NCBI RefSeq assembly: GCF_019740355.2
Contig: NZ_CP091819.1
Span: 930,001 to 994,000, forward strand
Source of the DNA: Paracrocinitomix mangrovi
GTDB taxonomy: Bacteria > Bacteroidota > Bacteroidia > Flavobacteriales_D > Crocinitomicaceae
Direction: 5' to 3'
Length of the DNA stretch: 64,000 nucleotides
Shown here: positions 525-24,104 of the stretch, piece by piece
Layout of the letters: every line of letters begins with the position of its first letter
How positions within the stretch are numbered: position 1 is the stretch's first letter
Position numbers and translations under genes: made by a program
The notes under the pieces: model-generated
Database searches by the model: none
What the model was told of the DNA's origin: nothing
Seen by the model: only the letters and a program-made list of their open reading frames with translations

Positions 525-733
525 TTATAACATAATAGCTAAAGCCAACGTCCGCCCCTTGGCCGGCCATCTTCTCACACATTTCTTGTCCATAGTCCTG
601 TGCTGTCATCATCAACTTCGCCAAGGTTACGTTGATTCAAAACGGTTGGACAGCCATCCCGAGGACTCGGGAGGGGTTTTGGCCACCGAACATCAAGACG
701 GCATAAATGCCTAACTTTACCCAAACGTTATGA
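525..733 (+). repeat. attC-1 (cassette recombination site), unusually long
   Basis: Left core TTATAAC (525-531), then arm TAGCTAAAGCC and ACGTCC; right side CCTAACTTTACCCAAAC and core GTTATGA (727-733). The 209-base element has a GC-rich loop with GGCCGGCC, a CCCGAG/CTCGGG hairpin (about 659-673) and a TTTTGGCCACC counterpart, so the loop itself can fold. It is the longest site in the array. Confidence 0.75.
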
Positions 734-742
734 AGCATTAAA

Positions 743-1075
743 ATGCAAGATAAAGGGAAGTCAAAATACGGTTTGGAAAAAATTATTAAGAATTACTCTT
801 CAATCACCGAAGAGAATGTAATTGAATTTATTCAAAAGCTTAAATTGCATGGGGCAGGTTTTCTAGAAACAATAAAAATAATCCGAGAGATGTGTGGCTA
901 TTCTTTAATCGAAATTCAAAAGCACATGCAGGAATCTGGTGTTTGGAACAATGAATTAGAAACAACTGCTGAAATGGAGCAAGAATTTATGCGAATAGCA
1001 GCTAAAGATGCTGAAAATGTAGTTACGGACTTAGATGGGAATATAATCTCTCTGACAAAGAGTTCAAAAAAGTAA
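743..1075 (+). CDS. Hypothetical cassette protein, 110 aa
   Basis: A small soluble protein, Lys/Glu-rich, mostly predicted helix, starting 10 bases after the right core of attC-1. Residues about 44-63 (ETIKIIREMCGYSLIEIQ) resemble the helix-turn motif of ribosomal L7/L12-type C-terminal domains (LRExTGLSLxEAK), but this is only a pattern likeness and no function follows from it. The stop is 49 bases before attC-2. It has no signal peptide, unlike most neighbours. Confidence 0.7.
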   Translation: MQDKGKSKYGLEKIIKNYSSITEENVIEFIQKLKLHGAGFLETIKIIREMCGYSLIEIQKHMQESGVWNNELETTAEMEQEFMRIAAKDAENVVTDLDGNIISLTKSSKK

Positions 1076-1123
1076 GATAAGTTATTGTCTACAAAAAGTA
1101 ATCCTGCACAAACAGAAAACGCC

Positions 1124-1261
1124 ACCTAACACAATAGGTAAAGCACATGTCCTTCCCTTTTTTGCCAGCACTCCCGATAGCTATCGGGATCGCACGCAAT
1201 TCAACTTCAGTAAAACCTTCGTTGAACAAAGTAAATTGCTAGCTTTAGTCAAACGTTATAA
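1124..1261 (+). repeat. attC-2, group A loop
   Basis: Left core ACCTAAC (1124-1130), arm ATAGGTAAAGC, then ATGTCC; right arm GCTAGCTTTAGTCAAAC and core GTTATAA (1255-1261). The loop holds a perfect 16-base palindrome CCCGATAGCTATCGGG (1173-1188) and a second stem TTCAAC/GTTGAA. This is the best-preserved member of the long, palindrome-containing group. Confidence 0.85.
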
Positions 1262-1292
1262 ACCATTGGCAACTAGGGAAGAGAATTTAAGA

Positions 1293-1487
1293 ATGATTAA
1301 ATTATATGGCATAAGCTTGATTTGTCTCTCTTTCTTCATAATCTTAATGATTTATGGAGGTAATCATGAACACCTCATATTTCGTGCTCATATGTTAGAA
1401 GATTGGATTCTGTATGGTGCATCTTTATTATCGTTTATTTTTGGAATTCTTCTATTAATTAAGGCATTCAAAGCCAATAAAAAATAG
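1293..1487 (+). CDS. Small two-helix membrane protein, 64 aa
   Basis: Two hydrophobic segments, about residues 4-21 and 39-58, joined by a short polar loop with two histidines (GGNHEHL), and a basic tail (KAFKANKK). The frame is open upstream to a TTG inside the right arm of attC-2, but the ATG at 1293 lies after the core and gives a start right before the first helix, so I choose it. It is followed 9 bases later by the next gene with no attC between, so the two form one two-gene cassette. Family not recognised. Confidence 0.6.
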   Translation: MIKLYGISLICLSFFIILMIYGGNHEHLIFRAHMLEDWILYGASLLSFIFGILLLIKAFKANKK

Positions 1488-1496
1488 TAACCAAAA

Positions 1497-1931
1497 ATGA
1501 ACAATTTCAAAAATCCACATAGAAGTCCTAAAGAAGCTTGGACAACAACCCAAGAAGGAATAGATCTGGTTTATCCAATTTTTCATCATGACACGACCAT
1601 AGTACATGATCCTATAATTAAGCGAAATGTTAAAGAGGTTTGCGGAGATATTGACTTCTGGAGCTGGGACGGAAATGAAAATGACAGATTCGTTGATAGT
1701 ACTGGAAAAGTATTCCTTTCCAAGAACGAAAAATCTGGAATCTGGGCTTCTGGTCAATTTCCAGCGGAAGTTGAACGAACCATGGACATTTCAGAAATCA
1801 AAGGAATTATGAAAATGGGAATTGACACTAACAAATCGAACATTAAAGAAGATTCAGATTTATTAAAACTTGAACTTGATAAGCTTGAATCTATTCAGGA
1901 AGTTTTGTTGCTATGCGCCAGGTACTTTTGA
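1497..1931 (+). CDS. Hypothetical cassette protein, 144 aa
   Basis: A soluble protein with an aromatic and acidic middle (CGDIDFWSWDGNENDRF, residues about 48-64) and a C-terminal Lys/Leu-rich helix. No signal peptide and no recognised family. It is the second gene of a cassette shared with the small membrane protein just upstream, so a joint role is possible but unproven. The stop lies 7 bases before the left core of attC-3. Confidence 0.65.
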   Translation: MNNFKNPHRSPKEAWTTTQEGIDLVYPIFHHDTTIVHDPIIKRNVKEVCGDIDFWSWDGNENDRFVDSTGKVFLSKNEKSGIWASGQFPAEVERTMDISEIKGIMKMGIDTNKSNIKEDSDLLKLELDKLESIQEVLLLCARYF

Positions 1932-1938
1932 AAAATGC

Positions 1939-2073
1939 ATATAATTCAGTAAGCAAAGCTCACGTCCGACACTTGTCTATCTCTCCCGATAGCTATCAGG
2001 ATCGCACTAAATTCAACTTCAATAAAACTTTCGTTGAACAAAGTAAATTGCTCGTTTTATGTAAATGTTAACA
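1939..2073 (+). repeat. attC-3, group A loop
   Basis: Left core degenerate (ATATAAT, 1939-1945), arm AGTAAGCAAAGC and CACGTCCGAC; loop with CCCGATAGCTATCAGG, the attC-2 palindrome with one mismatch; right part GTTGAACAAAGTAAATTGC and core GTTAACA (2067-2073). Confidence 0.7.
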
Positions 2074-2123
2074 TCAATTACAAAAAGAATTGTCACGTTT
2101 TAATTATTTTAAGTTAAAAAGGT

Positions 2124-3083
2124 ATGCGTTTGATACTCACTATTAATCTAATTTTTGGTTTAAGCTCATTCAATTGTTTTTGCCAAAAAGAATTTAATTT
2201 CGATCAATTGAAATCAAATGCAACAGAGAAGATTATTAACATCCGATATTCTTTTGATTCTTTGATTGTAGATTCAATTAAGGAAAAATCAAGATTCATC
2301 ACTTACATTTATCAATATCCCAATGGACAAAAGGCTTACCTCACAGAGTTTAAATCTCCAAGAACTGGCTTAAACCATAAGGAAATTCAATTTAAAACGC
2401 ACTTTGGTAAAGACTCAATAATTTATGATTCCGTGTCTAATGGTTCCTTTCAAATTTTTGAACATAAGTATGACAGTCTTAATAGAGAAATACAATACCA
2501 TTGGAAAGTAATCAATGAAAATGACACAACTATTAATTCGAAGTATTACAACTACATTGACGAAATTAAATTTGGCAAAAAAACAACCATAAAAAACGCA
2601 TACAAAGTGTACTCTGATCATGAAAAAAAGGACAGCAGTTATTTTGGTAAAGCAATTACTTTGTTTCGCAGGAATGGAAGAGAAAAGGTTTACTACACCT
2701 TGAATTCAAAAGGATACAAAGGATGGCTAACAGAATTTAATTATTCTAGAAAGTTTACAAAATTAACCCATTACATTGATAATTCAGATGGGACAGGTCT
2801 AGAAGAGTTTTGGGTTGAATATATCGGAAATGATTTTGAGATTGACTGTATTAAAAGAGAGGTAATTCAATTTCCAACTATTAAATTGGAAAATATACGT
2901 CAAACGTTGCTCAATTTAATGCTCCAATATCATTCTTGGCTACAAGACTCAAAATGTTATGATACTGAACTCAAATTGTTTTCTGCTGACAAAAGAAATT
3001 TTCTTTACATCTATTTTGACAATGGAAATTATAACAATCGATATTCAGGAGATTTGATTTTGGAATTTGTTGTTAAAAACTGA
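2124..3083 (+). CDS. Secreted protein with sequence-repeat character, 319 aa
   Basis: Starts with a signal peptide ending near CFCQ (residues about 1-21), so the product should be exported across the inner membrane. The mature part has short segments of the type YPNGQKAYLTEF, which resemble MORN/YD-type repeats found in many Bacteroidota secreted proteins of unknown role; the N-terminal MRLIL start and general make-up resemble the 307-residue cassette protein at 18408. The start lies 51 bases after attC-3. No attC with both arms follows; only a right-arm remnant near 3218. Function unknown. Confidence 0.7.
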   Translation: MRLILTINLIFGLSSFNCFCQKEFNFDQLKSNATEKIINIRYSFDSLIVDSIKEKSRFITYIYQYPNGQKAYLTEFKSPRTGLNHKEIQFKTHFGKDSIIYDSVSNGSFQIFEHKYDSLNREIQYHWKVINENDTTINSKYYNYIDEIKFGKKTTIKNAYKVYSDHEKKDSSYFGKAITLFRRNGREKVYYTLNSKGYKGWLTEFNYSRKFTKLTHYIDNSDGTGLEEFWVEYIGNDFEIDCIKREVIQFPTIKLENIRQTLLNLMLQYHSWLQDSKCYDTELKLFSADKRNFLYIYFDNGNYNNRYSGDLILEFVVKN

Positions 3084-3217
3084 TGTGATGAATAAAAGAT
3101 TTATTTGAATATAGGCAGTCCAACTTTTCATATTTAAAGCATCTACAAATGTGATTATATACTTACCTTTAAATAGGTATTTTCTAGCATATTTAACCTT
3201 CTGGTTGAGTAGGTGTA

Positions 3218-3245
3218 AATAGCTAACTTTACTTGAAAATTTAGT
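3218..3245 (+). repeat. Right-arm attC remnant
   Basis: AATAGCTAACTTTACTTGAAA resembles the attC right arm, including TAACTTTA at 3224-3231, but the left arm and right GTTRRRY core are missing. It lies 10 bases before the next start codon, where a right arm would be expected. Confidence 0.35.
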
Positions 3246-3254
3246 GCAAGTAAT

Positions 3255-3776
3255 ATGAATTCAATGTTATCGAAAAAAAATTCATTTAAAAGTTTAATAA
3301 AATGGAGCCCGACTTTATTTTTTATCTGCTTATTTGCATGCCATATTAATCAAGATCCTAGGAATAAAAGCAAATCAAGCACACTTCATCTAAAGAAATT
3401 GAATTTGAAATTAGAGAGTCATTTCAAAAATGGAAATTATATTATATCAGTACATGACAGTGTTAGAAACAACTTGAAAGAACGATTCACCGCTCTAAAA
3501 GACTCTTCAGCATTTATGAATGATACAGTTGATTTGAAGTCTGTAGATTCATATTGGACTAAAAGGCATATCAACAGAGTTCTGCGTGAATGTATTGAAT
3601 TGAATAAAGCTCGGATATATTCAATCTCCGAATCGAGATATATTTATAATTTGAACAGGATCGTTTCCAAATCAAAATTTAACGAAGTGCACAATAGTTA
3701 TTTATATGCAAATGTCGAAAATGGAGATACAATTCTTTTCTCTTATTCTTTTGATCAAGGAACTTTCCCTTTTTAA
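3255..3776 (+). CDS. Lipoprotein, 173 aa, unknown function
   Basis: N-terminal signal with a lipobox LFAC, the lipid-bearing Cys being about residue 29; a second ATG three codons in (3264) would shorten it to the usual length. The rest is a Lys/Ser-rich periplasmic or surface-facing domain without a recognised motif. The next gene starts 31 bases downstream with no attC between, so both may belong to one cassette that ends at attC-4. Confidence 0.7.
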   Translation: MNSMLSKKNSFKSLIKWSPTLFFICLFACHINQDPRNKSKSSTLHLKKLNLKLESHFKNGNYIISVHDSVRNNLKERFTALKDSSAFMNDTVDLKSVDSYWTKRHINRVLRECIELNKARIYSISESRYIYNLNRIVSKSKFNEVHNSYLYANVENGDTILFSYSFDQGTFPF

Positions 3777-3806
3777 CTAAAAAGCAATAAACAATATAAA
3801 TATTAA

Positions 3807-4028
3807 ATGAATTACGACAAAGTAATTAAGCATTGTGATGAGTGCTGTAGTGAATACTTCAGATATGCTTCTCAAATGGAAACTATGTGTCCTGAATGCT
3901 CACACTTTCTTTACGGATATGAGAACTGCGAACATGAATTTGTAAACAAAAGATGTGTCAAGTGTTATTGGAACGGACAACACTCCGAATACGTTTTGAA
4001 TCTTATAAATAAGTCCAACGAAATATAA
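3807..4028 (+). CDS. Small Cys-rich zinc-ribbon-like protein, 73 aa
   Basis: Three CxxC-type pairs are visible (CDEC near residue 10, CPEC near 28, CVKC near 51) plus a further Cys/His pair (NCEHEF), which is the layout of a double zinc ribbon. The product should be cytoplasmic. Its stop codon TAA (4026-4028) lies inside the left core ATATAAT of attC-4, so the reading frame ends flush with the recombination site. Target or partner unknown; zinc binding is inferred from cysteine spacing only. Confidence 0.65.
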   Translation: MNYDKVIKHCDECCSEYFRYASQMETMCPECSHFLYGYENCEHEFVNKRCVKCYWNGQHSEYVLNLINKSNEI

Positions 4029-4180
4029 TGCAGTAAGCAAAGCTCACGTCCGACACTTGTCTACTCTCCAGATAGCTATCGGGATGCGCCCATTTGGCCT
4101 ACGCACTTCACGACGGCATTCTACTTCAGCTGCGCTTCCGTAGAATACGGTAAATGCCTAACTTTGCTTAAACGTTATGC
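4023..4180 (+). repeat. attC-4, groups A and B mixed loop
   Basis: Left core ATATAAT (4023-4029) containing the stop of the upstream gene, arm AGTAAGCAAAGC, loop with CCAGATAGCTATCGGG (palindrome, one mismatch) and then ACGACGGCATTCTACTTCAGC, right part TAACTTTGCTTAAAC and core GTTATGC (4174-4180). The first half matches attC-3 and the second half matches attC-7 and attC-12, so it looks like a hybrid site. Confidence 0.75.
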
Positions 4181-4223
4181 AACACAGTAATACTATTCAA
4201 GTAGTTATTTTGAAATCAATCAT

Positions 4224-5450
4224 ATGAAAAATTATATTCTAATTCTCACTGTGGTCTTTAGACTGACATCATGTGTATCAGATTCAGATAACTCAGAAGG
4301 CAATTCAAACGACAGTAAGAAACAAGCACAGAAAGAATTCTTTGACAATGTCTTTAATGACGATCAAATTGAAACACAAGTCTACACTATAGACGGAAAC
4401 TCCGATACTACATTGATTTGTAAAAATGGGTCAAAGCTTAGGATTTACAAAGAATCATTAATCTTAAATGGTGAAGACTATGAAGGTGAAATTGAGATTC
4501 ATTTCAAAGAGGCTCTAGAACCTATTGACTTTGTTATGGGTAATTTGACAACTGTATCTAATATAGGTAACCTTCAAAGTGGAGGCATGGTGTTTTTCGA
4601 AGCATATGCGGGTGATCAAATATTGCATATCAATACTGATGCTCCAGTTGGAGTAATTGTCCCTTGTGAACAAGTAGATGAAGCCATGACTACATGGCAC
4701 GGAAATAGAAATGATGATAGCGTTATGGAATGGAGTCAAGATGAACGTATGCTCAATAATGATGTTGAAGACTTGAATTTAGCTTGGACAAGGGTATTGT
4801 ACTGGCATCACAACTATGATGAAGATGAGTATAGCGAATTGGAGAAGACCTATGGAGACAGTATTAACAACTTTTTTTGGGATGTCAATAGTGTAGAAGG
4901 AAACAAGCTTGAGATTGAGGGCTGTGTAATTGAAATCATGAGAAAAGAAACCAAACTAGACTCTGTAGAATTGGAAGATTGGGCAGGAGGTATTTTTCTA
5001 TCTGAATTAATGAATGTGGGCAATGTAAATGAATTTAAAGAAGATCCAAATACAAGTTATTTGTTCACTTTGAATGATATAGGTTGGGCTAATATTGATA
5101 GACTATTCACTGATCCTAGATCTGAAAAAGTAGAACTTTTTACCTCAGTTGAGAATGAGGAAAATTATGATTTTGTCTATTCCACTTTGATGTTAAAAAA
5201 TGAATCAATGTATTTACCTGGATATCAAATGGAGGACAATACCTTCGGATTTACACACTACGACACTGAAAAACCGATACTACCTATTGGTGCAGAAGCC
5301 ATTGTATTGTGTACAGCCTACAAAGATGGAGTGCCGCATTATGATTACAAGAAATTTGATATTCAGAAAGAGCAAAAGATCAATTTGAAGCTAAAACCTT
5401 CAGAAATGGATGCCATGAAATCACAGTTGAAAGAATTGATGGAATCCTAG
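4224..5450 (+). CDS. Large lipoprotein, 408 aa, unknown function
   Basis: Lipobox RLTSC with the lipid-bearing Cys at residue 17, followed by a Ser/Asn/Asp-rich linker typical of Bacteroidota surface lipoproteins. The mature domain is acidic, with beta-rich segments (about residues 60-150) around GNLTTVSNIG and QSGGMVFFEAYAG, a pattern I have seen in uncharacterised Bacteroidota exported proteins but cannot name. No catalytic motif is visible. No attC follows it; a 179-base non-coding gap leads to the next gene. Confidence 0.7.
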   Translation: MKNYILILTVVFRLTSCVSDSDNSEGNSNDSKKQAQKEFFDNVFNDDQIETQVYTIDGNSDTTLICKNGSKLRIYKESLILNGEDYEGEIEIHFKEALEPIDFVMGNLTTVSNIGNLQSGGMVFFEAYAGDQILHINTDAPVGVIVPCEQVDEAMTTWHGNRNDDSVMEWSQDERMLNNDVEDLNLAWTRVLYWHHNYDEDEYSELEKTYGDSINNFFWDVNSVEGNKLEIEGCVIEIMRKETKLDSVELEDWAGGIFLSELMNVGNVNEFKEDPNTSYLFTLNDIGWANIDRLFTDPRSEKVELFTSVENEENYDFVYSTLMLKNESMYLPGYQMEDNTFGFTHYDTEKPILPIGAEAIVLCTAYKDGVPHYDYKKFDIQKEQKINLKLKPSEMDAMKSQLKELMES

Positions 5451-5629
5451 AAACCGTAAAAGACAATCCTGAAGAATTTAGGCTTAAATTATAAATTACC
5501 CCCCGTTCACGCGGATTTGACTTAAGTAACTAAAAGAATATTTCTCATTTATATTTGAGACCACTAATAGAAGTCAAATCATGAAATGTTATTTATTACC
5601 TAATCGTATCTTTAAAATTCTATATAGAA

Positions 5630-6211
5630 GTGAAGAATAAATTTTACCCAAAGGTTATTCTGGCAGCTTCATTATTATCACTAATGCAGATAGCTTGTAA
5701 TGGTAATGAATCAGCCACTGTAGCGATAAATAATGTTGACAGAGTAAATGTTGACTCATGTGATGAAGATTTTATACAAGCAATTGAATTGATTAAATCA
5801 GATTCTCCTTTTTTGTTTGTAGAACCTTTACTGAATGTGTTCCACAAAAAATTAGACACAAATAGAATTTGGAAAAACAAAGGTTTAGACAGTATTTTCA
5901 CTGATAATGATCTGTACTATTTACACGAAAAAGAATGGAATATTAACACGGCTTGTTATCCCATGTTTGAATTTACTTCAATTGATTCAGCAAAGTCAAG
6001 GATAGATCAATTTCTCAATGACAATAATTACCATGGTAATACCACCTATTATAGTGTATCAAAACCTATCAAATCATTGGATGGTAATTATCTTTTAATT
6101 GAAATGGACAAACATTGCTATGGCCTTTGTGGAATGGGAGAAACATTTCTCTTTCAAAAAACGCATGAAGGCTGGAAGAAGGTTTGGGAAGTATTTAGAT
6201 GGATTAGTTAG
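5630..6211 (+). CDS. Lipoprotein, 193 aa, unknown function
   Basis: GTG start chosen because it gives a complete lipoprotein signal (basic N-terminus, hydrophobic stretch, MQIAC with Cys at residue 23) and no in-frame ATG lies before it. The mature part is acidic with four further cysteines, two of them near the C-terminus (HCYGLCGMG), and ends in a Trp-rich beta segment. No recognised family. No attC-like element is visible between this gene and either neighbour. Confidence 0.6.
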   Translation: MKNKFYPKVILAASLLSLMQIACNGNESATVAINNVDRVNVDSCDEDFIQAIELIKSDSPFLFVEPLLNVFHKKLDTNRIWKNKGLDSIFTDNDLYYLHEKEWNINTACYPMFEFTSIDSAKSRIDQFLNDNNYHGNTTYYSVSKPIKSLDGNYLLIEMDKHCYGLCGMGETFLFQKTHEGWKKVWEVFRWIS

Positions 6212-6374
6212 TTTCATTGAAATTTCATCACTAATCTTTTGATGGTGGCCGTTTCATATATTTATTGCGGAAAATACGGTAATCAAATACAGTTCTGCCA
6301 ATTCTCCTTTTTATTTGCGATATTGAGGTGGATAAAGTGCATGGGGTGCTTTATTCGTAAATTAGATACAATTA

Positions 6375-7043
6375 ATGTCTTCAGCTCTAGCACATTATAT
6401 CTTCATGCATTACTCAAGGTATTTCACCAAACCTGAAGGTAGAGCATACAACCATTGGATTGCAAACGAAAAAGTAAATGCATTTGAAAATCAAGAGGTA
6501 AGAAGAAAAATGTACATCAGCAAGGGCATCATCTCTGAAGATCCAGAGGTTTTAGAATTACTTAGGGAAGGATTTGATCAATTCAAATTGAACACTGCAA
6601 AGCGAATCCTCAATGAGCATTCGAAAAATGTTTTTTTGAATTACTGTCCTAAATGTGGGGGACTTGCTAGAACTCCTAAAGCTCGTCAATGCAGACATTG
6701 CGGACATAAATGGCACGATCAAGTTGTCGGACAAATCATAACACATGAATTTTTAAGCACATCTGAAAAAGGATTGATTCTGGACTGTCAAATTTTCAAA
6801 GGTGAAGTCGAAATAGGTGATTGGATTGAATTCTACGAATTTGATTTAAATGAAAAAGGACTTGTAGAGCATGTCGGTGTGGTTAATCTTGAACCATCCA
6901 AAGATGGAGTAAATCGCCAAGTTATTAGGATTTCAGGATTATCTGATTTCGCAGAGTCATTACTGTTGGCCAATCAGTATTCCAAACTTCTAGAAGTATT
7001 GCGTGAGAAAACTGATGCTAACAAATTAGCTAAAGCTAAATAG
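6375..7043 (+). CDS. Zinc-ribbon protein with C-terminal beta domain, 222 aa
   Basis: Central zinc ribbon: Cys91, Cys94, Cys106 and Cys109 (CPKC-x11-CRHC). The N-terminal 85 residues are helical with charged repeats (EDPEVLELLREGF). The C-terminal part (about 115-195: GEVEIGDWIEFYE, then GLVEHVGVV) reads like a small beta barrel of the EF-Tu domain-II kind, a weak likeness. The last residues ANKLAKAK are translated from the left arm of attC-5 (GCTAAC, then TAGCTAAAGC), so the gene fuses into its recombination site. Likely cytoplasmic; nucleic-acid or protein binding would be a guess. Confidence 0.65.
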   Translation: MSSALAHYIFMHYSRYFTKPEGRAYNHWIANEKVNAFENQEVRRKMYISKGIISEDPEVLELLREGFDQFKLNTAKRILNEHSKNVFLNYCPKCGGLARTPKARQCRHCGHKWHDQVVGQIITHEFLSTSEKGLILDCQIFKGEVEIGDWIEFYEFDLNEKGLVEHVGVVNLEPSKDGVNRQVIRISGLSDFAESLLLANQYSKLLEVLREKTDANKLAKAK

Positions 7044-7113
7044 GTCGACACGGTCGACTCTACCTCGCGCCCTAAAGCCGCATTAAATTATTAGCTTTAG
7101 CCAAACGTTAGGG
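7017..7113 (+). repeat. attC-5, overlapped by the upstream coding region
   Basis: Left core GCTAAC (7017-7022) and arm TTAGCTAAAGC are inside the 3' end of the upstream gene; loop has the palindromic GTCGACACGGTCGAC; right arm TTAGCTTTAGCCAAAC and core GTTAGGG (7107-7113). Confidence 0.75.
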
Positions 7114-7154
7114 TGCATTGTACCAGAATTGAATGATTACATTATAGAAATACA

Positions 7155-7670
7155 ATGAGGATAATTCAAATAACCTTTCTTCTTCTATGTACAACTTCAT
7201 TTTCACAAAAGGACACGAGTGCCTGTGAAGTTAAAAAGGTAAGATTCACGAATTTCGGAAAACAGAAAGGTTATTCAACAGAAAATCTAAAATCTGGACA
7301 AATATGGAGGCTTGCTGACGAATCATCTATAGACTCGCTTTGTCTTGATTCAACAAAATTTTCAAAAATCCCATTAAAAATTTGGGAAAATAGTAGCTGC
7401 AGAGACACAAGTTACATTGAGTGCGGCTACGATTTTGATGATGGATTATTATACTGTTATTTACTATTCGATTCTACAGGTTACTTTGAATTTCTCTGGT
7501 TAGAACAAAAAGGTGGATATGAGATAGCAAATCGAACAAGTACTGTCACCGTTTATGATGTAGAAGAAAGTGATAGGCTCATTATATATTGGACAATTGT
7601 CCCAAAATATCCTTTACCTAAAGAGCCTTACAGCAGGTTTCTTGTTATTGATCCGAAAAACGCACCCTAA
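7155..7670 (+). CDS. Secreted protein, 171 aa, unknown function
   Basis: Signal peptide (residues about 1-18, ending FSQ) and a mature domain with five cysteines that may form disulfides (for example CRDTSYIEC). The C-terminus has a proline-rich stretch (PKYPLPKEPYS). The stop codon TAA (7668-7670) is part of the left core CCCTAAC of attC-6. The start is 42 bases after the right core of attC-5. Family not recognised. Confidence 0.7.
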   Translation: MRIIQITFLLLCTTSFSQKDTSACEVKKVRFTNFGKQKGYSTENLKSGQIWRLADESSIDSLCLDSTKFSKIPLKIWENSSCRDTSYIECGYDFDDGLLYCYLLFDSTGYFEFLWLEQKGGYEIANRTSTVTVYDVEESDRLIIYWTIVPKYPLPKEPYSRFLVIDPKNAP

Positions 7671-7753
7671 CACAATAGCTAAAGCTAACGTCCTACCCAT
7701 GGCCGGCACACTTCACGTCGCATTAATTTGCTAGCTATACCTAAACGTTAGGG
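7665..7753 (+). repeat. attC-6, near-ideal site
   Basis: Cores CCCTAAC (7665-7671) and GTTAGGG (7747-7753) are perfect inverted repeats; inner arms ATAGCTAAAGC and GCTAGCTATACC pair imperfectly; loop contains GGCCGGCACACTTCACGTCGC. At 89 bases it is a compact, standard-looking attC. Confidence 0.9.
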
Positions 7754-7836
7754 ATAATTGCGATAATCACAAATCAGTACTTTAAAATGCGCGATTCAAT
7801 TATTATTAGATGATTGATTGTTTGAATTTTGTAATC

Positions 7837-8539: not shown

Positions 8540-8548
8540 AACATTGAC

Positions 8549-16638: not shown

Positions 16639-16649
16639 GTGATTATAAG

Positions 16650-17225
16650 ATGACTTTAAATTCAATAAAATTTGCATTCCTTTTGAACATTATTTCATTA
16701 CTAATATTGTCATGTAATGATAATAACGCATCAAATCAGACTTCGAATTTTGTCGAAACTGATAGTACAAATAATATTACTTCAGACAATATGGATATGC
16801 ACAATATGACTTGGTACACGGCGAATTTTGAATACGAAGGGTTGCCATTATTCGTCAGAAAACCAGGATTTGAAAACATCTATGAATTCGAATCAAAATT
16901 CCCATTTCTGTTTTTTGTAAGCCATCAACTTGATAGTGTTATGGAAAATGGATTACCTACTGCAGATTACAATTTGACTTTAATGAAATTTGATTCTTTT
17001 ATGACTGATCTATTTTCAACTGGAATTGAAGGAATACCAGTATTAAAAGAAACTTACAATGGAGAAAGAAACTACTGGTATTATGTTGATTCGGACAAGT
17101 ATACTGATCAGAAGAAACAATTTATACAAGAAAATTTTCCCAATCTTAAAATTCAAGTAAATTGCGCGCTTGATGAGAAATGGGGATTCATACGAGAGTA
17201 TCCGTTTGATCTATACCCAGGGTAG
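16650..17225 (+). CDS. Lipoprotein, 191 aa, unknown function
   Basis: Lipobox LILSC (Cys22) and an Asn/Ser/Thr-rich linker to about residue 50. The mature domain carries helices with aromatic residues (NYWYYVDSDKYTDQKKQF) and ends FDLYPG. No family recognised. It begins 12 bases after attC-13 and ends 8 bases before attC-14, so the coding sequence fills the cassette. Confidence 0.7.
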   Translation: MTLNSIKFAFLLNIISLLILSCNDNNASNQTSNFVETDSTNNITSDNMDMHNMTWYTANFEYEGLPLFVRKPGFENIYEFESKFPFLFFVSHQLDSVMENGLPTADYNLTLMKFDSFMTDLFSTGIEGIPVLKETYNGERNYWYYVDSDKYTDQKKQFIQENFPNLKIQVNCALDEKWGFIREYPFDLYPG

Positions 17226-17233
17226 AAAACGAC

Positions 17234-17366
17234 GCACAACATAGTAGGTAAAACACTTGTCTTACCCTTTTTTAGCTACACTCCCAAAAACAGTAAGGAC
17301 ACAATTCAACTACAATTTCATTTTCGTTGAACAAAGTAAATTGCTAGCTTTAGACAAACGTTGGGT
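17234..17366 (+). repeat. attC-14, group A loop, decayed palindrome
   Basis: Left core GCACAAC (17234-17240), arm GTAGGTAAAACAC; loop CTCCCAAAAACAGTAAGGAC, a further decayed form of the attC-2 palindrome, then AATTCAAC/GTTGAAC; right arm GCTAGCTTTAGACAAAC and core GTTGGGT (17360-17366). Confidence 0.8.
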
Positions 17367-17382
17367 TTAATCTGACAGTTCA

Positions 17383-17802
17383 ATGAAAAAGTTTGTAATT
17401 ATATGTCTAATAATGGTTCCATTTGTCGGGTACTGCGATACTCTCGACTATTGGACCGTGCATTTAAATAGCAAATTACTTGGGCAATACAACGAATTGT
17501 CAAATGATAACGAAATAGTTCTAAAAAGTGATTCAATTTTAGAAACCGATACAATTTTTATCACTTATGGAAATGATCATCCCTGTGTAAAATGCGAATA
17601 CTATTTTGCAGTAAAGGACTCTTTAGACGGCATTAAAATACATGTTGAAAGAAAACATCAAATACCAGCGAGAACATCATATCCTCTAAAAAAACTAAAG
17701 AATTTTCATGGACAAAAAGAATTCCTTTTCTTTCTTTATGAAGACGATTGGACTGGAGATCACAACATTTATACAGTTCTGTTCAGACTCAAAATTGAGT
17801 AG
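17383..17802 (+). CDS. Secreted protein, 139 aa, unknown function
   Basis: Signal peptide MKKFVIICLIMVPFVGYC, with cleavage near residue 18; the Cys-Asp at 18-19 could also serve as a poor lipobox. The mature part has a CVKCEYYF pair and alternates short beta strands; it ends EDDWTGDHNIYTVLFRL. Starts 17 bases after attC-14. No family recognised. Confidence 0.65.
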   Translation: MKKFVIICLIMVPFVGYCDTLDYWTVHLNSKLLGQYNELSNDNEIVLKSDSILETDTIFITYGNDHPCVKCEYYFAVKDSLDGIKIHVERKHQIPARTSYPLKKLKNFHGQKEFLFFLYEDDWTGDHNIYTVLFRLKIE

Positions 17803-17840
17803 CACAGAAATTTTGATCGCTAACTGGTAATAGAGATCGC

Positions 17841-17930
17841 ATCACAATATATTAGTTGAAGAAAGTATCCTCCCCTTTGTAAAAGCTCTATGGACAGAAT
17901 AAATTACTAGTTTTAGTCAAACGTATTATG
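17841..17930 (+). repeat. attC-15, degenerate
   Basis: Left end ATCACAATATATTAGTTGAA is a weakened core and arm; right arm ACTAGTTTTAGTCAAAC and altered core GTATTATG (17923-17930). The start codon of the next gene (17928) is inside the altered right core. Confidence 0.55.
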
Positions 17931-18320
17931 CAATTGCGATTACCCATAATTATCGGATTAATTATCAACTTGAACAGTCAGGCTCAAGTTAATATTGAGT
18001 TAATCAATGGAACTTGGACTTTCACTGATGACAACGATTCTACATGGATTAATTTCGAATTGGACACCCTTTGGATGATTCAATATCCTGGAATTTGTGA
18101 TTCTACTTTGTCGGAATATGCAGGTTACTATACCGCAAATTACCATCCATTTGGAACTGTAAAGTTTCAGTTCACAATTTGTGACTACGATCAAGTGACC
18201 TATATCTCAATGAGTAATGGCTGTATTAAAAGTACAGGAGAAATTCAGTCTATCTCTCAGAAAAAGCTTGAGATCAGTTGGGATGGAAAAGTCACAACTT
18301 ATTATCGTAAAGAGGAATAA
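17928..18320 (+). CDS. Small secreted lipocalin-like protein, 130 aa
   Basis: Signal peptide ending NSQAQ (about residue 20), then a domain opening INGTWTFTDDNDSTWINFE and ending TYYRKEE; a Gly-x-Trp near the mature N-terminus and a run of beta strands of this length are typical of lipocalin-like domains in Bacteroidota exported proteins. Four cysteines may pair. The ATG lies in the right core of attC-15, leaving almost no leader. The fold call is tentative. Confidence 0.55.
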   Translation: MQLRLPIIIGLIINLNSQAQVNIELINGTWTFTDDNDSTWINFELDTLWMIQYPGICDSTLSEYAGYYTANYHPFGTVKFQFTICDYDQVTYISMSNGCIKSTGEIQSISQKKLEISWDGKVTTYYRKEE

Positions 18321-18329
18321 GAAAACTGT

Positions 18330-18399
18330 TGTTAACACCCAACCGTAGGCTGACACAGTTTTCATAGAATTAATTGCTAGTTTTATCCATACGTTAAAC
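18330..18399 (+). repeat. attC-16, short
   Basis: Left core TGTTAAC (18330-18336) and right core GTTAAAC (18393-18399) with right arm GCTAGTTTTATCCATAC; the left arm is weak. At 70 bases it is one of the shortest sites. Confidence 0.6.
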
Positions 18400-18407
18400 G
18401 CTTTAAG

Positions 18408-19331
18408 TTGAGACTTATACTGAACATATACTTTATCTTTTTCACAATTTCCGCACTAGGACAAATTTGGGACTATCCTCCTTCATCATATACTGAACAA
18501 AACGTTTTGAAGGGAAATTATATCTCCGTTAGAAAAATTGAAACGTACAAATCCGAAATAAGGAACGGAAAAGAAACAGGAATTAAACAACTTGAATATT
18601 TTAAAGAATATGATGTTCAAGGAAATCTCATTCTTGAAGTTATTGACTCTGGAGATTCAACTGTATATGGAAATTACAATTCTGGTTTTTGGGGTTTCAA
18701 AAAAATGGCAAATCAAGACACAATTTTTCAGAATGTAATTTTTGATTTGAATGGGAAAGTTATTTATCACAGTACTTACAACCCTAATATTGCAGATGAT
18801 TCCTTAATTACTACTTCAAAATATGATGATAAAGGCAAGATATTATCTCGAAATTCTAATGGATCAAAATTTACTTGGAATTATAACAACGGTAATGATA
18901 GTATTATAAAAGAATTCCCACCGGTCCTTCAGAGTTGGGAATATATTGATCAAAAGATTATAAATTACTCTAAGTATGAAAACAACACTTTGGTAGAGTC
19001 AAGAACTTTCTCATATAATCATGACACAATATCCTATATCACAACTTTTTATTCTAATGGAAAGCCATATCCAATAAGTGACACAACAATTGGAGTTGTC
19101 AATAGTAATAATGAAGTATTGCATGTCATGTCCTACACAGATGGAGAAAAAGATCCTTATGAATTGAAATCCACATATAACGAAAAAGGGGAATTGTTAA
19201 TCCTCCAGCACGGATGTAAAAAGTTTCTTTATGAATATAACAAAGAGGGTCGTTTAATCAAAATCGAAAGTTATAATTGTGAAGGTGAATTATTTAATGT
19301 AGTGCTAAAAGAATACTATTTAGAAAAATGA
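18408..19331 (+). CDS. Secreted YD-repeat-like protein, 307 aa
   Basis: TTG start 9 bases after attC-16, giving a signal peptide (MRLILNIYFIFFTISALGQ). The mature protein holds at least five units of the pattern YDxxGxLIxxx: YDVQGNLILEV, FDLNGKVIYHS, YDDKGKILSRN, YNEKGELLILQ, YNKEGRLIKIE. These are YD/RHS-type beta-hairpin repeats, usually carbohydrate or surface binding. Resembles the secreted proteins starting at 2124 and 42896 in size and start. Exact role unknown. Confidence 0.7.
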   Translation: MRLILNIYFIFFTISALGQIWDYPPSSYTEQNVLKGNYISVRKIETYKSEIRNGKETGIKQLEYFKEYDVQGNLILEVIDSGDSTVYGNYNSGFWGFKKMANQDTIFQNVIFDLNGKVIYHSTYNPNIADDSLITTSKYDDKGKILSRNSNGSKFTWNYNNGNDSIIKEFPPVLQSWEYIDQKIINYSKYENNTLVESRTFSYNHDTISYITTFYSNGKPYPISDTTIGVVNSNNEVLHVMSYTDGEKDPYELKSTYNEKGELLILQHGCKKFLYEYNKEGRLIKIESYNCEGELFNVVLKEYYLEK

Positions 19332-19420
19332 ACTAATCTCAATAGTTAAATTTCATGACTGGTATTTGGCCAGCAATTCCTTTCAACGAATAAATTGTTA
19401 GTTTTAGTTAAACATTGTGC
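19327..19420 (+). repeat. attC-17, degenerate
   Basis: Weak left part (TGAACTAATCTCAATAGTTAA) overlapping the stop of the upstream gene; loop TGGTATTTGGCCAGC; right arm GTTAGTTTTAGTTAAAC followed by ATTGTGC (19414-19420), a core with its first G changed to A. Confidence 0.55.
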
Positions 19421-19429
19421 TTCATCTGA

Positions 19430-20383
19430 ATGAGCCTGAAAGAAAATATAATATTCATAGAAAATGGAAATTATTCTAACATCAAGGATGCGCTAAAACA
19501 GTGGATTGAACTTTATCAAGAAAAATTAGATTCTAACCTAAAATTTAAACTGTTCAAATATGAGGAAAATTATACGGTAATTGAACTGAATACGGAAATT
19601 GAAAACGAGCTTTTTAATTATTTAATAAACTACCTCACTTATCCTGAAAAGAATAAAAACAATGTCTTAGTAAAAGGATTTACTATAATAAAAGATAAGA
19701 AGATCTTCCCAGAAAACTTATTAAATAAATCTGTTCAAATTTCAGTACCGAAAAATGACAAAGATTTTGACAAAGTAATTGGAGTTGTAAAATCAGGGGA
19801 GACATACAAAATAGATTTCGGAGGGAACACTGCTTTAGTAAATAATGAAATAATATATTCTAAACCAGCAATCGAATATAAAAACTGTGCCTCTGAGATT
19901 ATTGAAATTGATAAAAAAAGTGTCAAAGAAAAACAGAATAACAATAAACTAAAGAAGTTTAATTTTCGATTTTTAATAATTACTTCCTGTTTTATAGCAG
20001 GAAACTTAATTGCCGGTTATTTAACTTATAAAACGGAGAACTTTGTAACCCTTGTTAAAATATCATCCTTCGGTTTATTTATTTGGACAATGCTTGAATA
20101 TGAGTTATTAAGATTAAATAGTGCTTATTTGAAATTACTTTCATTGTCTATTATTTTTAGTTTGTTAGGGTATTATTTATCAGTTGAAAATTCAAATGAC
20201 ACATGGTTTAAGTCGACTAAATTGAGTCTGTGTTTTCTAATTTTATATAAAATATTAAGATCGCTATATCTGGCAATTTATAAGAGAGAGCCTGATTTTG
20301 GTAACAATACAAATCTAATTGCTGACAGAATTTATTCCTTTATATTATTAGTAGGAACTTTATTGACTAGTTTATTATTGTAG
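19430..20383 (+). CDS. Membrane protein with N-terminal soluble domain, 317 aa
   Basis: Residues 1-170 are soluble and charged, with NIKDALKQWIELYQEKL and a later small beta segment; residues about 183-316 hold five hydrophobic helices, one containing ITSCFIAGNLIAGYL. There is no signal peptide, so the N-terminal domain should face the cytoplasm. No family recognised. It starts 10 bases after attC-17 and ends 8 bases before attC-18. It is one of the larger cassettes. Confidence 0.65.
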   Translation: MSLKENIIFIENGNYSNIKDALKQWIELYQEKLDSNLKFKLFKYEENYTVIELNTEIENELFNYLINYLTYPEKNKNNVLVKGFTIIKDKKIFPENLLNKSVQISVPKNDKDFDKVIGVVKSGETYKIDFGGNTALVNNEIIYSKPAIEYKNCASEIIEIDKKSVKEKQNNNKLKKFNFRFLIITSCFIAGNLIAGYLTYKTENFVTLVKISSFGLFIWTMLEYELLRLNSAYLKLLSLSIIFSLLGYYLSVENSNDTWFKSTKLSLCFLILYKILRSLYLAIYKREPDFGNNTNLIADRIYSFILLVGTLLTSLLL

Positions 20384-20390
20384 CAAGGCC

Positions 20391-20478
20391 GCATAACATA
20401 AAACGTATAGAATCCTTCCGCTACTTGACCGGTACACTTATCAAAGAATAAATTGTTAGTTTTAGTAAAACGATAAGA
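20391..20478 (+). repeat. attC-18, group C
   Basis: Left core GCATAAC (20391-20397); loop TTGACCGGTACACTTATC; right arm GTTAGTTTTAGTAAAAC and core GATAAGA (20472-20478), with GTT changed to GAT, which should lower recombination. Confidence 0.65.
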
Positions 20479-20491
20479 GCAATTAGTTGCA

Positions 20492-21004
20492 ATGACACAC
20501 ACCAAAAAAATTAAATGGAGTATTGATCTTGAATCCGAAAACTTTAAACTAGATTCAGATTACATTTTCTGTTTTAGTCACAATGACGGTTTTAGTGAAA
20601 AACTGATCTCAATTGACTTATCCATTGCTAAAAATTTTCAGTTCGAGCTTGAGGTTTCTGATTTTGACAACATACCTGCCTACTCCAATAAACCTTTCTT
20701 TGCAAGGCTTGAAGGAACAATTCCAACTCAATTAAAAGAGTTAATTGAAAAAGTAATCCTAATAAGAGATTTCAAACAATTTGAAATCTTCAACCCTTTG
20801 CATCCCGGAGCAACTGACCAAGGATATCAGCTTTTCTTAATTAACCGAACTGGACAAACCAGGCATGTTTACCTACCTATCGAAGAACTTAACTTGAATA
20901 CTTTGGAAGCAAACAAAGACCAAATGTTAATTCAAGAATTACATCATCACATTAACATTTGGACAAAAAGAATGTACCAGTTACTTAAAGAAAATTGTAG
21001 CTGA
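20492..21004 (+). CDS. Hypothetical cassette protein, 170 aa
   Basis: Soluble protein without signal peptide. A proline/glycine segment in the middle (FNPLHPGATDQGYQLFLI) precedes an arginine-rich strand and a C-terminal helix with HHHINIWTKRM. No recognised family. Its last codons (Asn-Cys-Ser-stop, AATTGTAGCTGA) run into the left arm of attC-19, as in the zinc-ribbon gene at 6375. Starts 14 bases after attC-18. Confidence 0.6.
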   Translation: MTHTKKIKWSIDLESENFKLDSDYIFCFSHNDGFSEKLISIDLSIAKNFQFELEVSDFDNIPAYSNKPFFARLEGTIPTQLKELIEKVILIRDFKQFEIFNPLHPGATDQGYQLFLINRTGQTRHVYLPIEELNLNTLEANKDQMLIQELHHHINIWTKRMYQLLKENCS

Positions 21005-21068
21005 TATCCGGTAATTAACCTCCACTCTTTTCAAATAATAAATTGCTAGCTTTAGTTAAACGTTGTGG
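20993..21068 (+). repeat. attC-19, left arm inside coding region
   Basis: Left arm TGTAGCTGATATCCGG corresponds to ATAGCTAAAGC-ACGTCCGG of intact sites, left core lost; right arm GCTAGCTTTAGTTAAAC and core GTTGTGG (21062-21068). Confidence 0.55.
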
Positions 21069-21087
21069 GTTATTACAATTTGACCTT

Positions 21088-21786
21088 ATGAACACCCAAA
21101 AGCACATTGTTCGATTATTAATTTGGTTTAAAAACCCAGATGATTCTCTTTATGAATTGACTAGATTGTTTGTACCCGTTTCTATGTTAATGAACAGACT
21201 ACTAAATGAATTATATTCAGGAAAAAAGATCAAGTTTCTCAATATCAATTTAAGGACAGCTGATTCATTTGAAAAAATTGAAAATGCATCAATCGACTAC
21301 GTTCATAGCTATGGAGGCCATATAAGTATTGACTCTATTCTTCCTTTAGACAAATTCAATTCTTTGAGTTATACAGAGCAACTTTACTTTGTTTGGGATC
21401 TTGCCAAAGAAGCTATATTGAAAATTTCTACTGATTTAAAGAATAATGATTTATCAGATGCAGTGCAAAAGGCTTATCAAAAAGGACTTGATCAAAATAT
21501 AGATTTGGATTTTGACCTTATTGTTGAAGAATTTCAGATTGGCAATCATACGTTTGTAGCTTCTTTAAAAATGGAATTTGATAAGAATATTGTTCATGCT
21601 CACTATAAGATTGTGTCAGACTCAAAATCAATTTTTAATCAAATTATTGACTCTACAACCTGTGATACTGAGTTCTTTTATGAAATGTTCAAATCAATAG
21701 TAACAGAAGGAAATCATATAGTACTCAAAGGCCATGAAGAAGTAGATTACTTACCATTATATGTAGAGATAGAAAACCAAACATAG
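21088..21786 (+). CDS. Hypothetical cassette protein, 232 aa
   Basis: ATG 21088 is used; the frame is open back to a TTG in the right arm of attC-19 but that part is attC sequence. The product is soluble, acidic, with no signal peptide, and has a helical middle (YTEQLYFVWDLAKEAILKI) and a C-terminal half rich in strands (HAHYKIVSDS). No recognised family. Stop at 21784-21786 is directly at the weak left end of attC-20. Confidence 0.6.
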   Translation: MNTQKHIVRLLIWFKNPDDSLYELTRLFVPVSMLMNRLLNELYSGKKIKFLNINLRTADSFEKIENASIDYVHSYGGHISIDSILPLDKFNSLSYTEQLYFVWDLAKEAILKISTDLKNNDLSDAVQKAYQKGLDQNIDLDFDLIVEEFQIGNHTFVASLKMEFDKNIVHAHYKIVSDSKSIFNQIIDSTTCDTEFFYEMFKSIVTEGNHIVLKGHEEVDYLPLYVEIENQT

Positions 21787-21918
21787 TACAATAAGTAAAG
21801 ATAAACATCCGATCTTTTTTGCCAATTCTCCAAAAAAAGCTGTTGAGATACACGCAATTCAACTACAATTTCATTTTCTTGAACAAAGTAAATTGTTAGA
21901 TTTACTCAAAAGTTAGGG
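21784..21918 (+). repeat. attC-20, group A loop, most decayed
   Basis: Left end AGTACAATAAGTAAAGATAA (core damaged), ATCCGA; loop CTCCAAAAAAAGCTGTTGAG (palindrome no longer pairs), then AATTCAAC with TTGAAC; right arm GTTAGATTTACTCAAAA and core GTTAGGG (21912-21918). Confidence 0.65.
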
Positions 21919-21928
21919 TCAACTAAAA

Positions 21929-22753
21929 ATGAATCTGTTTAAGAAAAATATTGGCAAAAACAGACTTTTAAAGTTATACAAAGCGGTTTCCCAATCAGAT
22001 GCAGAAGCCTTCGACACAAGAAGCTTGATTCATTTTTTGCTTAACGAGTTTGACCAATTACATCTGAATCTGGAACATTTTTATGTCACTGGACCTTACC
22101 CAAATAATGGATGGAAAACCAAGAAAGGGTTTCTAGATGGACTAAATAAGAAAGATTTTAAAAATGTCCACCATTTAATGATTTCAGATTCAGATGAATT
22201 AATGAGATTGAACTTTCGAAATTGGTCTCATAATAGGACTATTAAAATTGATTCTGATTCAATTGTAATCGAATTAATGTTTGACGAAAATACAATTACC
22301 GATAAAGGATTGGTATCATTAGGAAAAAGACTATTTGAAGTACTTAGTTTTGAATATGGCTACATCTTTTCCCAGTCAAAAATTTTCTCAATTTCTGAAG
22401 GAAAAATTAAAAATGGAATCTTCTTTTATTCCGAAAAAGAAAACGCTGAATATCAAAAATGGTCAAAATATAGTGCAGCCACAAAATTTGGTTTTATAAG
22501 GAATGTTTACAAGCTAAATTTTCTTTCACCTAACCACCTGGAAAATGAGGATTTAAATAAGGTGGTGAAAAGTATTGGTCAATTGAATACTTATGATCAC
22601 TTCTCAATTTGGACTCTTACGGATAGTGAAGTTGAGCAAGCATTGAAACTATTAAACTTATCTTCAGTTCTTGTGAAAAATGAATCATTTAATGACACAG
22701 AAATTTGTCAAAAAATTGATGATGAAATAAAAAAAATATATACAACATTATAA
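21929..22753 (+). CDS. Hypothetical protein, 274 aa, Imm52/DUF3396-like at low confidence
   Basis: Soluble, no signal peptide, starting 11 bases after attC-20. The segment AATKFGFIRNVYKLNFLSPNHL (about residues 186-207, shown here only in part in this motif sense: GFIRNVYKLNFLS) recalls GxxRxxYxxNFLS of DUF3396/immunity-type proteins. That is a pattern memory, not a search result. The next gene follows after 12 bases without an attC, so both share a cassette. Confidence 0.6.
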   Translation: MNLFKKNIGKNRLLKLYKAVSQSDAEAFDTRSLIHFLLNEFDQLHLNLEHFYVTGPYPNNGWKTKKGFLDGLNKKDFKNVHHLMISDSDELMRLNFRNWSHNRTIKIDSDSIVIELMFDENTITDKGLVSLGKRLFEVLSFEYGYIFSQSKIFSISEGKIKNGIFFYSEKENAEYQKWSKYSAATKFGFIRNVYKLNFLSPNHLENEDLNKVVKSIGQLNTYDHFSIWTLTDSEVEQALKLLNLSSVLVKNESFNDTEICQKIDDEIKKIYTTL

Positions 22754-22765
22754 ACATTTGAAACA

Positions 22766-23212
22766 GTGAGTAAAACGAACATAATCTTATTGTTATCCAT
22801 AGCAGGTATGTTCGTTATTTCTGGTTTTCTAATTTTGCTGGGATTCTATCCAAGAGGTACTTACGAGACAGAAAAAGACCAGATTAAAATCAAAGTTTCG
22901 ATTACTGAAAATACTTATGGCTTTGTAGATACTGAATTCACAAAAAAGGTTACTCTCGAAGACGGACCTGAAAAATACAAATTTGATTTTTGGTCAGTAG
23001 AATTGAAATTCAGCTTAATAAAAAGAGAAAAAGACGGAAAGAAATTCTGGATTATTGATGACTACATGCGTGGAGTTGCTAAAGTTCAAGACGGAACAAT
23101 AGAAAATTTCAGTTGTTCGGACTGTTCTTCAAATGAATCTCTTCAAGGTAACGACTTAACAACTTTCACCTTTGACCAATTTAAGTGGAATTACATAGAA
23201 AATGATTTATAA
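22766..23212 (+). CDS. Membrane-anchored hypothetical protein, 148 aa
   Basis: GTG start 12 bases after the previous stop. One N-terminal helix (about residues 6-27, LLLSIAGMFVISGFLILLGF) acts as an anchor or uncleaved signal; the remaining 120 residues are beta-rich and outside the cytoplasm, with a cluster FSCSDCSS. Co-transcribed with the 274-residue protein upstream. No family recognised. Downstream lies only a right-arm attC remnant. Confidence 0.6.
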   Translation: MSKTNIILLLSIAGMFVISGFLILLGFYPRGTYETEKDQIKIKVSITENTYGFVDTEFTKKVTLEDGPEKYKFDFWSVELKFSLIKREKDGKKFWIIDDYMRGVAKVQDGTIENFSCSDCSSNESLQGNDLTTFTFDQFKWNYIENDL

Positions 23213-23214
23213 GG

Positions 23215-23279
23215 TATTAGGCGACATTTTCCATTCACACGTACCATGTTCAAGTACTAGCTTTACTCAATCGTTTGTA
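23215..23279 (+). repeat. Right-arm attC remnant (group D)
   Basis: CCATGTTCAAGTACTAGC, TTTACTCAATC and core GTTTGTA (23273-23279). The left arm is reduced to an uncertain GTATTAGGCGAC. Very similar to the remnant at 15960-16020. Confidence 0.5.
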
Positions 23280-23325
23280 AGCATTAACATTTAAAATTTG
23301 GATTGATTTTTGTGATCAGACAGTT

Positions 23326-24039
23326 ATGCTCAGAATCATTTTTTTTCCATTTATATTTCTCTACTCGTTGAATAGCTTCTGCCAATTAAATGATTGTGAA
23401 GAAATTTTTGATTTATACAATGTAGATTCAGCTCTTTACGCCAATTTATATTCACCATCATATTGTGAAGGTGTGATTGAATCTTATAACAAATCCATCC
23501 CTACATATTTAATTCCTGAATCAAATATTTGCACTTATTGGGCATTAGAGAAAAATGGTATCAAGATCGTTGAAAATGATTTAGACATTGCTCCCTTGGA
23601 ATTTCATGAACAAACTACCGGCTTTAACTTTACAACCAAGTTGAGAGTAAAAAATGATCTTAATTTAGATTTTGATTCCCTTTGTAAAATTGACACTTCA
23701 TGGATAGAATTGGAGGATTATGAATTCGCAAAGCTTTTGATTGAATGCTTTGACTTCACAAAAAATGACTCCGGAAAAACTATAATGTATCTTAACAAAG
23801 ATAAAGTCACAAAATCATCTTTTAAAACCATGAATGGAACCGAGTTTACAATTAAACGGACAAAGGAACGCTTTCAATATGTAGATTTAATAGCTGGAAT
23901 TGAACTAACAGAAGTTGATTTGCAGAATGGAATAATTTACCTTGAATTCCACTTTGAGAACTATACGAACCCAAACAATGTTTGTTTATTGCGATACACA
24001 GGATATTCGGTTCCAATAAGGGTGGAATATGCTCCCTGA
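23326..24039 (+). CDS. Secreted protein, 237 aa, unknown function
   Basis: Signal peptide MLRIIFFPFIFLYSLNSFC ending near residue 20. The mature protein is acidic with seven cysteines, beta-rich toward the C-terminus (IIYLEFHFENYT). No recognised family. The stop TGA (24037-24039) lies in CCCTGAT, the altered left core of attC-21 (CCCTAAC in intact sites), so a TAAC-to-TGAT change kept a stop codon. Confidence 0.65.
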   Translation: MLRIIFFPFIFLYSLNSFCQLNDCEEIFDLYNVDSALYANLYSPSYCEGVIESYNKSIPTYLIPESNICTYWALEKNGIKIVENDLDIAPLEFHEQTTGFNFTTKLRVKNDLNLDFDSLCKIDTSWIELEDYEFAKLLIECFDFTKNDSGKTIMYLNKDKVTKSSFKTMNGTEFTIKRTKERFQYVDLIAGIELTEVDLQNGIIYLEFHFENYTNPNNVCLLRYTGYSVPIRVEYAP

Positions 24040-24104
24040 TATAATCGCTAAACCTCACTTCTCCTTTCAACGAATAAATTGTTAGATTTAGCCTTAGGTT
24101 ATAA
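24034..24104 (+). repeat. attC-21, short and degenerate, last two-armed site
   Basis: Left core CCCTGAT (24034-24040), arm AATCGCTAAACC; right arm GTTAGATTTAGCCTTAG and core GTTATAA (24098-24104). No site with both arms is visible to the right of this one. Confidence 0.6.

Follow-up and report, generated by a model that had tools for sequence, protein, structure and literature searches.

The window, a 64,000-bp stretch of the Paracrocinitomix mangrovi chromosome (G000:C1:930,001-994,000 of the complete 4.37-Mb genome, closest by protein search to Bacteroidia), opens with a long series of attC-like elements set between genes. This raises the question of whether the series is an integron cassette array and, if so, which enzyme moves its cassettes. 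For Bacteroidetes, only one complete integron has been reported (PMC9024848). Here, the evidence read from sequence comprises the arrays, the covariation and exact boundaries of their sites, the recurrence of whole cassettes, a conserved attI-like palindrome, the absence of the I2 helix, and a linkage found in many genera. We consider it very likely that the genome carries an integron-type system of five arrays, in which a tyrosine recombinase without I2 inserts and shuffles cassettes at G^TT.

An earlier reading made from the letters alone (the sequence-only reading) had described two-core, two-arm elements in one orientation at 525-24104 and had proposed a sedentary cassette array or an attC cluster without integrase. 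Both descriptions held. The elements are present at these positions, all on the + strand, and the window array is supported as a genuine integron-type cassette array of the CALIN type (cluster of attC sites lacking integron integrase), with more than two attC sites and no integrase in cis. It begins about 5 kb to the left of the window, at about C1:925,060, and is clear until about 24.1 kb in the window; decayed core relics at about 24.9, 26.1, 26.8, and 27.3 kb continue it through a fade-out at 24.1 to 27.3 kb. About 24 right-hand cores with three mismatches or fewer lie at 705-24,100 in the window, and three more lie to its left. None of its cassettes has a copy elsewhere in the genome, and its cores also agree less well, so that the window array has the look of a CALIN that is old, sedentary, and decayed. 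An Rfam search of the window at the gathering threshold gave zero matches.

The cassette circle of an integron is opened at G^TT, and the R'' box at the end of a cassette must therefore match the start of the same cassette. A corresponding result was obtained here: the R'' box of each attC (AAC-N7-AAC) matched the start of its own cassette (GTT-N7-ATT), which is the core of the previous site. Over the variable positions of 58 cassettes, R'' agreed with its own start at 5.5/7 on average, compared with 3.2 for the next start and 3.0 ± 0.16 for shuffled starts. Such a match is characteristic of a circle closed at G^TT. The view that the cores pair within a site thus had to be given up. Of the two examples offered for it, the site at 7665-7753 agreed with its own start at 7/7 and with the next at only 4/7, and the site at 10287-10407 fits both starts by coincidence.

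Covariation and folding tests served in place of a search with an attC covariance model, and both used sites rebuilt as they would be in their own circle. Beyond the ten base pairs of R, there was a fixed A.C mismatch (2% match), followed by A-T pairs. In the rebuilt sites, 95.5% of cells were paired, compared with at most 52% when the partner was shifted by 1-3 columns. Covariation over the R and L stems was 0.447, compared with 0.137 ± 0.012 after shuffling, and 0/500 shuffles reached the observed value. A first count of the L box over all sites was weak, with 68/119 complementary at one position, and became clearer on a selected set. When sites from 15 loci were folded and compared with dinucleotide shuffles, the mean z was -5.0, with 69/72 sites below -2, and the bottom strand was more stable than the top in 67/72. 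The bottom strand is the one used by known integrons and is probably the substrate here as well. Complementary R and L boxes on a strand able to fold by itself are what is expected of attC. Many sites fit the RYYYAAC/GTTRRRY consensus only in part (e.g., GTTAGCA and GTTATGC), and the present box is longer.

The 15-base core pattern TTTASNCAAACGTTR had 92 genome-wide matches, compared with 1 for the reversed control, and these fell into five clusters; a strict scan placed 133 sites over the five arrays (Table 1). The best-preserved array, at 2.33 Mb, lies directly behind a tyrosine recombinase gene and an attI-like palindrome and is referred to below as the integrase array. Whole cassettes recurred among the arrays. 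Two copies of a 681-bp cassette in the 1.77-Mb array and a third in the integrase array were 100% identical, and a 677-bp cassette was present four times at 99-100% identity. A 761-bp cassette was common to the 1.77- and 2.13-Mb arrays (98.8% identity), a 921-bp cassette occurred twice in the integrase array, and another was common to the integrase and 2.44-Mb arrays (about 98% over 857 aligned bp). On both sides of the recurring cassettes, similarity fell to family level exactly at G^TT, and the neighbors differed. Thus, by comparison of copies in sister arrays, each cassette moves as a whole, with G^TT as the cutting point, as integron cassettes do. Exact whole-cassette copies connect the 1.77-, 2.13-, and 2.44-Mb arrays with one another or with the integrase array, which suggests that these three are still served in trans.

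The test that had been proposed, a comparison for gain or loss of whole cassettes at GTT cores, thus had its counterpart among sister arrays of the same genome, where whole cassettes recur at different places, and not in the window array, none of whose cassettes recurs. The same copies decided whether the repeats could be a family of repetitive extragenic palindromes (REP) or miniature inverted-repeat transposable elements (MITE) lying between genes and unrelated to cassette movement. The repeats are indeed intergenic and alike in sequence, but the repeats travel with their genes, with the ends precisely at G^TT, and R'' tracks its own gene and not the neighboring repeat copy. Repeats moving independently of the genes, the outcome named beforehand as telling against an array, were looked for and not found; the REP/MITE explanation was rejected, its probability being close to nil.

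A PF00589 search of the complete genome found four tyrosine recombinases: XerC, XerD, a third near 381 kb, and a fourth at G000:C1:2,329,887-2,331,029. The last gene points into the best-preserved array and lies 1.4 Mb from the window array. About 600 bases before it is a tRNA-Ala (GGC) gene (G000:C1:2,329,196-2,329,270), with a 130-residue open reading frame (ORF) on the other strand between them. The catalytic residues R236, K261, H326, R329, H352, and Y361 were aligned and invariant in 16 sequences. For NF040815 ('site-specific tyrosine recombinase/integron integrase'), the protein scored over the cut-off, and for TIGR02249, of which positions 180-239 were unmatched, it scored below. At the IntI-specific stretch it has 34 residues, compared with 76 in VchIntIA (2A3V). 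The spacing of two catalytic motifs was 65-67 residues in clade relatives where it was readable, 69 in XerC, and 107 in every IntI measured; the insert of about 41 residues with the I2 helix, a mark of the canonical integron, was absent in all relatives where this was measurable. In the tree, the recombinase fell in a separate clade (Shimodaira-Hasegawa-like approximate likelihood ratio support [SH-aLRT] of 94), apart from IntI (100) and inside a broad XerA-like group. By these measures, the recombinase is not an IntI and, in contrast to all IntI proteins described so far, is without the IntI-specific I2 domain. The IntI-type recombinase that had been sought as a check on the array was not there: a profile search of the complete genome found no IntI and no other integron-like recombinase, and the only candidate integrase is without the IntI-specific domain.

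Directly after the stop codon of the recombinase gene lies the palindrome GAATAAAGTAACTAGTTACTTTATTC; only a few bases separate its right arm from the GTT-N7 that opens the first cassette. The longest perfect palindrome arm averaged 8.2 bp in 23 relatives, compared with 4.9 bp after shuffling (maximum, 5.6), and the layout was the same in fresh genomes. The first cassette was not the same in this genome and two others of the genus. Judged by its sequence context, the palindrome takes the place of attI, adjoining the integrase gene and opening the array.

A palindromic attI and a recombinase nearest to XerA and without I2 would also suit the main rival explanation, a double-stranded Xer-like reaction. 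Cassettes would then move as double-stranded sites, as in Xer/dif, the hairpin would arise incidentally from the inverted R and L boxes, and, with no need for single-strand folding, I2 would be unnecessary. However, R'' would be superfluous in a simple double-strand site and yet covaries with R' over seven variable positions, and the sites fold far better than shuffles, mostly with the bottom strand as the more stable one. We therefore regard a double-stranded reaction as unlikely.

The exact 15-base core was nearly absent outside the genus, except in a few genomes, because attC sequences diverge; thus, a sequence-independent test of the start/R'' pairing was used for the integron-type system elsewhere. 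A first relaxed version gave chance pairs in AT-rich loci, and a strict 13-base signature with controls was adopted, which returned 70 pairs, compared with 0-1 in controls (overlapping loci count a few cassettes twice). In 80 loci fetched by protein similarity alone, there were 28 exact pairs downstream of the recombinase and on its strand, compared with 0 in 468 kb upstream and 0 in 600 kb on the other strand. With the signature already fixed, a draw across the class supplied a further 15 loci, which yielded 35 pairs, with 0 reversed, and in which three single-contig genomes from other families were represented. Pairs were seen in Winogradskyella ursingii, Flavobacteriaceae S0862, Seonamhaeicola aphaedonensis, Aequorivita sinensis, Rufibacter, Flavobacterium enshiense, Algibacter onchidii, and a few others. 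Some of the recombinases with downstream pairs lie outside the main clade (Flavobacterium enshiense, Algibacter, Rufibacter, and a metagenome-assembled genome of Spirochaetota). Close relatives of the recombinase occurred in 17/396 sampled genomes of the class and 16/199 genera. Plasmids of Persicobacter, Rufibacter, Pontibacter, and Chryseobacterium carried relatives as well, and zero were found among phage records.

In a draw across the wide GTDB phylum, 107/392 genomes had a true IntI (TIGR02249 over cut-off), only one of them in this class (G155, C40:3592-4530). This distribution bears on a smaller rival, in which the arrays are true integron arrays but XerC/XerD, or an IntI acting in trans from plasmids or phages, moves the cassettes and the neighboring recombinase is a bystander. 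XerC and XerD are encoded in the genome, and a precedent exists in CALINs elsewhere that are usable in trans by a foreign IntI (PMC9668308). On the other hand, an IntI was not found in the complete genome, only 1 of the 107 genomes with true IntI belongs to the same class, and the recombinase clade lies upstream of an attI-like palindrome and arrays, on the same strand, in many genera. Cassette movement by such enzymes is thus improbable.

The first 75 or so residues of the recombinase form a conserved N-terminal domain, for which no Pfam or PDB sequence match was found. Its predicted model (predicted local distance difference test [pLDDT] score, 88) has the order b-b-a-b-b-a. Among its best fold matches are XPB and the HARP domain of SMARCAL1, which bind DNA in a structure-specific manner, but a HARP/XPB-like fold is only a lead; the HARP-like guess predates the fold search.

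Several observations weigh against a hairpin-reading recombinase as the agent of cassette movement. The fold matches of the N-terminal domain were not significant (XPB, probability 0.85-0.90; SMARCAL1 HARP, 0.44; E, 0.1-0.4), and a short recombinase without this domain is also found upstream of similar cores in G070, so that some such systems may do without the domain. The G070 protein is a 284-residue open frame (L094 2165-2944) directly upstream of cores of the same type, and the short form resembles the TnpF-named recombinase of many Acinetobacter plasmids. One L-stem pair was broken in 9/35 sites. Two fresh loci (L259 and L263) with more than 2 kb downstream gave no exact pair. The contigs of most draft relatives end within a few kilobases behind the recombinase, and because of this the linkage in those drafts is read only from the start of the first cassette and the attI-like palindrome before it; early ends fit a repeat-rich array, as such repeats would cause them. 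In addition, XerC, XerD, and one more integrase in the genome could act in trans.

In the mechanism that we propose, a cassette would leave the array in the form of a circle of DNA that reads TT...G and is closed at G^TT. Its attC would fold, as the bottom strand, into a 10-bp R stem (GTT-N7/N7'-AAC), the A.C mismatch, two A-T pairs, and the L stem. The XerA-like recombinase, which we infer to be the enzyme moving the cassettes, would join the folded attC to the attI palindrome behind its own gene or to another attC, and would likewise shuffle circles among the arrays at G^TT. In place of I2, the conserved N-terminal domain may recognize the folded site.

Chromosomal integrons of the Vibrio cholerae type share with this system an attI that adjoins the integrase, attC sites with R and L boxes in one orientation, small genes mostly without known families, cutting at G^TT, and a bottom strand that folds best. 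In contrast, the integrase here has no I2 insert and has an extra N-terminal domain, the core is a 10-bp R stem with a fixed A.C mismatch and not a 7-bp GTTRRRY core, the integrase gene points towards the array, and attI is a palindrome. Four of the arrays, including that of the window, resemble CALINs as attC arrays with no integrase in cis, but the other three are linked by whole-cassette copies and the window array is not. XerA-like recombinases (NF040815; PDB 4A8E and 5HXY) have the same core and catalytic domains in sequence and predicted fold and also lack I2, whereas the protein here has an N-terminal extension and cassette arrays instead of dif as its partner. Elsewhere in this GTDB phylum, the integrases of other classes likewise belong to integrons, but those have I2.

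The features of the window are listed in Table 1. In a Pfam scan of 30 ORFs of the array region, 26/29 same-strand ORFs had no Pfam family, and the single antisense ORF matched FG-GAP only weakly and below the cut-off. Two copies of a 49-base direct repeat (96%), at 12977-13025 and 15241-15289, flank the acyltransferase/SGNH gene, which looks like an insertion or partial duplication within the array.

Table 1. Cassette arrays of the genome (kb of C1) and features of the window (window positions)
Feature	Position	Strand	Remark
Array 1, with window part	925-954 kb
Array at 1.77 Mb	1,771-1,803 kb
Array at 2.13 Mb	2,128-2,159 kb	-
Integrase array	2,331-2,361 kb
Array at 2.44 Mb	2,444-2,466 kb
Window part of cassette array 1 (CALIN)	1..24110	+	continues left to about G000:C1:925,060
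attC site	519..739	+	R'' vs own cassette start 7/7
attC site	1118..1267	+
attC site, diverged	1930..2079	+
attC site, decayed right half	3218..3252	+
attC site	4014..4186	+
attC site	7010..7119	+	core opens 7107-7671 cassette, exact start/R'' pair
attC site	7659..7759	+	R'' vs own cassette start 7/7
attC site	8413..8545	+
attC site	8989..9113	+
attC site	9693..9840	+
attC site	10281..10413	+
SUKH-1 (SMI1/KNR4) family cassette gene	10419..11129	+	Pfam
attC site	11132..11264	+
attC site	12511..12632	+
Acyltransferase-3 plus SGNH gene inside array	13069..15156	+	Pfam
attC site, right half	15982..16026	+
attC site	16546..16644	+
DUF695 cassette gene	16650..17225	+	Pfam
attC site	17228..17372	+
attC site, core mutated (GTA)	17836..17935	+
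attC site	18320..18405	+	left end approximate
attC site, core decayed	19333..19426	+	left end approximate
attC site, core decayed	20385..20484	+
attC site	20995..21074	+	left end approximate
attC site	21770..21924	+	left end approximate
attC site	23215..23285	+	left end approximate
attC site, last clear one	24036..24110	+	left end approximate
Array tail, decayed core relics	24912..27320	+	relics at about 24916, 26113, 26844, 27294

As reported previously, integron surveys recognize IntI by its specific domain with I2 (PMC9668308), and I2 has been described as solving the constraints of single-strand recombination and is held to have made this type of cassette recombination possible, with its deletion abolishing IntI1 function (PMC7790495). 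No description of a system such as the present one was found in the open-access literature, the range of that search, with subscription papers and preprints lying outside it. Because the I2 domain was tested for and is absent, the system would not be classified as a canonical integron, and it appears to be like one in nearly every other testable feature. Either integrons do not depend on the I2 helix, or there is an integron of a second kind. A broader and more tentative proposal, to which we give somewhat less than an even chance, is that a second integron lineage extends across Bacteroidia, with a XerA-like integrase that never had I2 and acts on folded single-stranded attC sites, and a HARP/XPB-DRD-like N-terminal domain that reads the hairpin. 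If true, single-strand cassette recombination would have arisen twice or would predate I2.

Integron surveys would miss these systems because they require the IntI domain. A natural system without I2 makes the need for I2 in single-strand recombination testable. In addition, it gives access to a large and still unread stock of mobile genes in Bacteroidia, and the wider recombinase family reaches beyond the close relatives.

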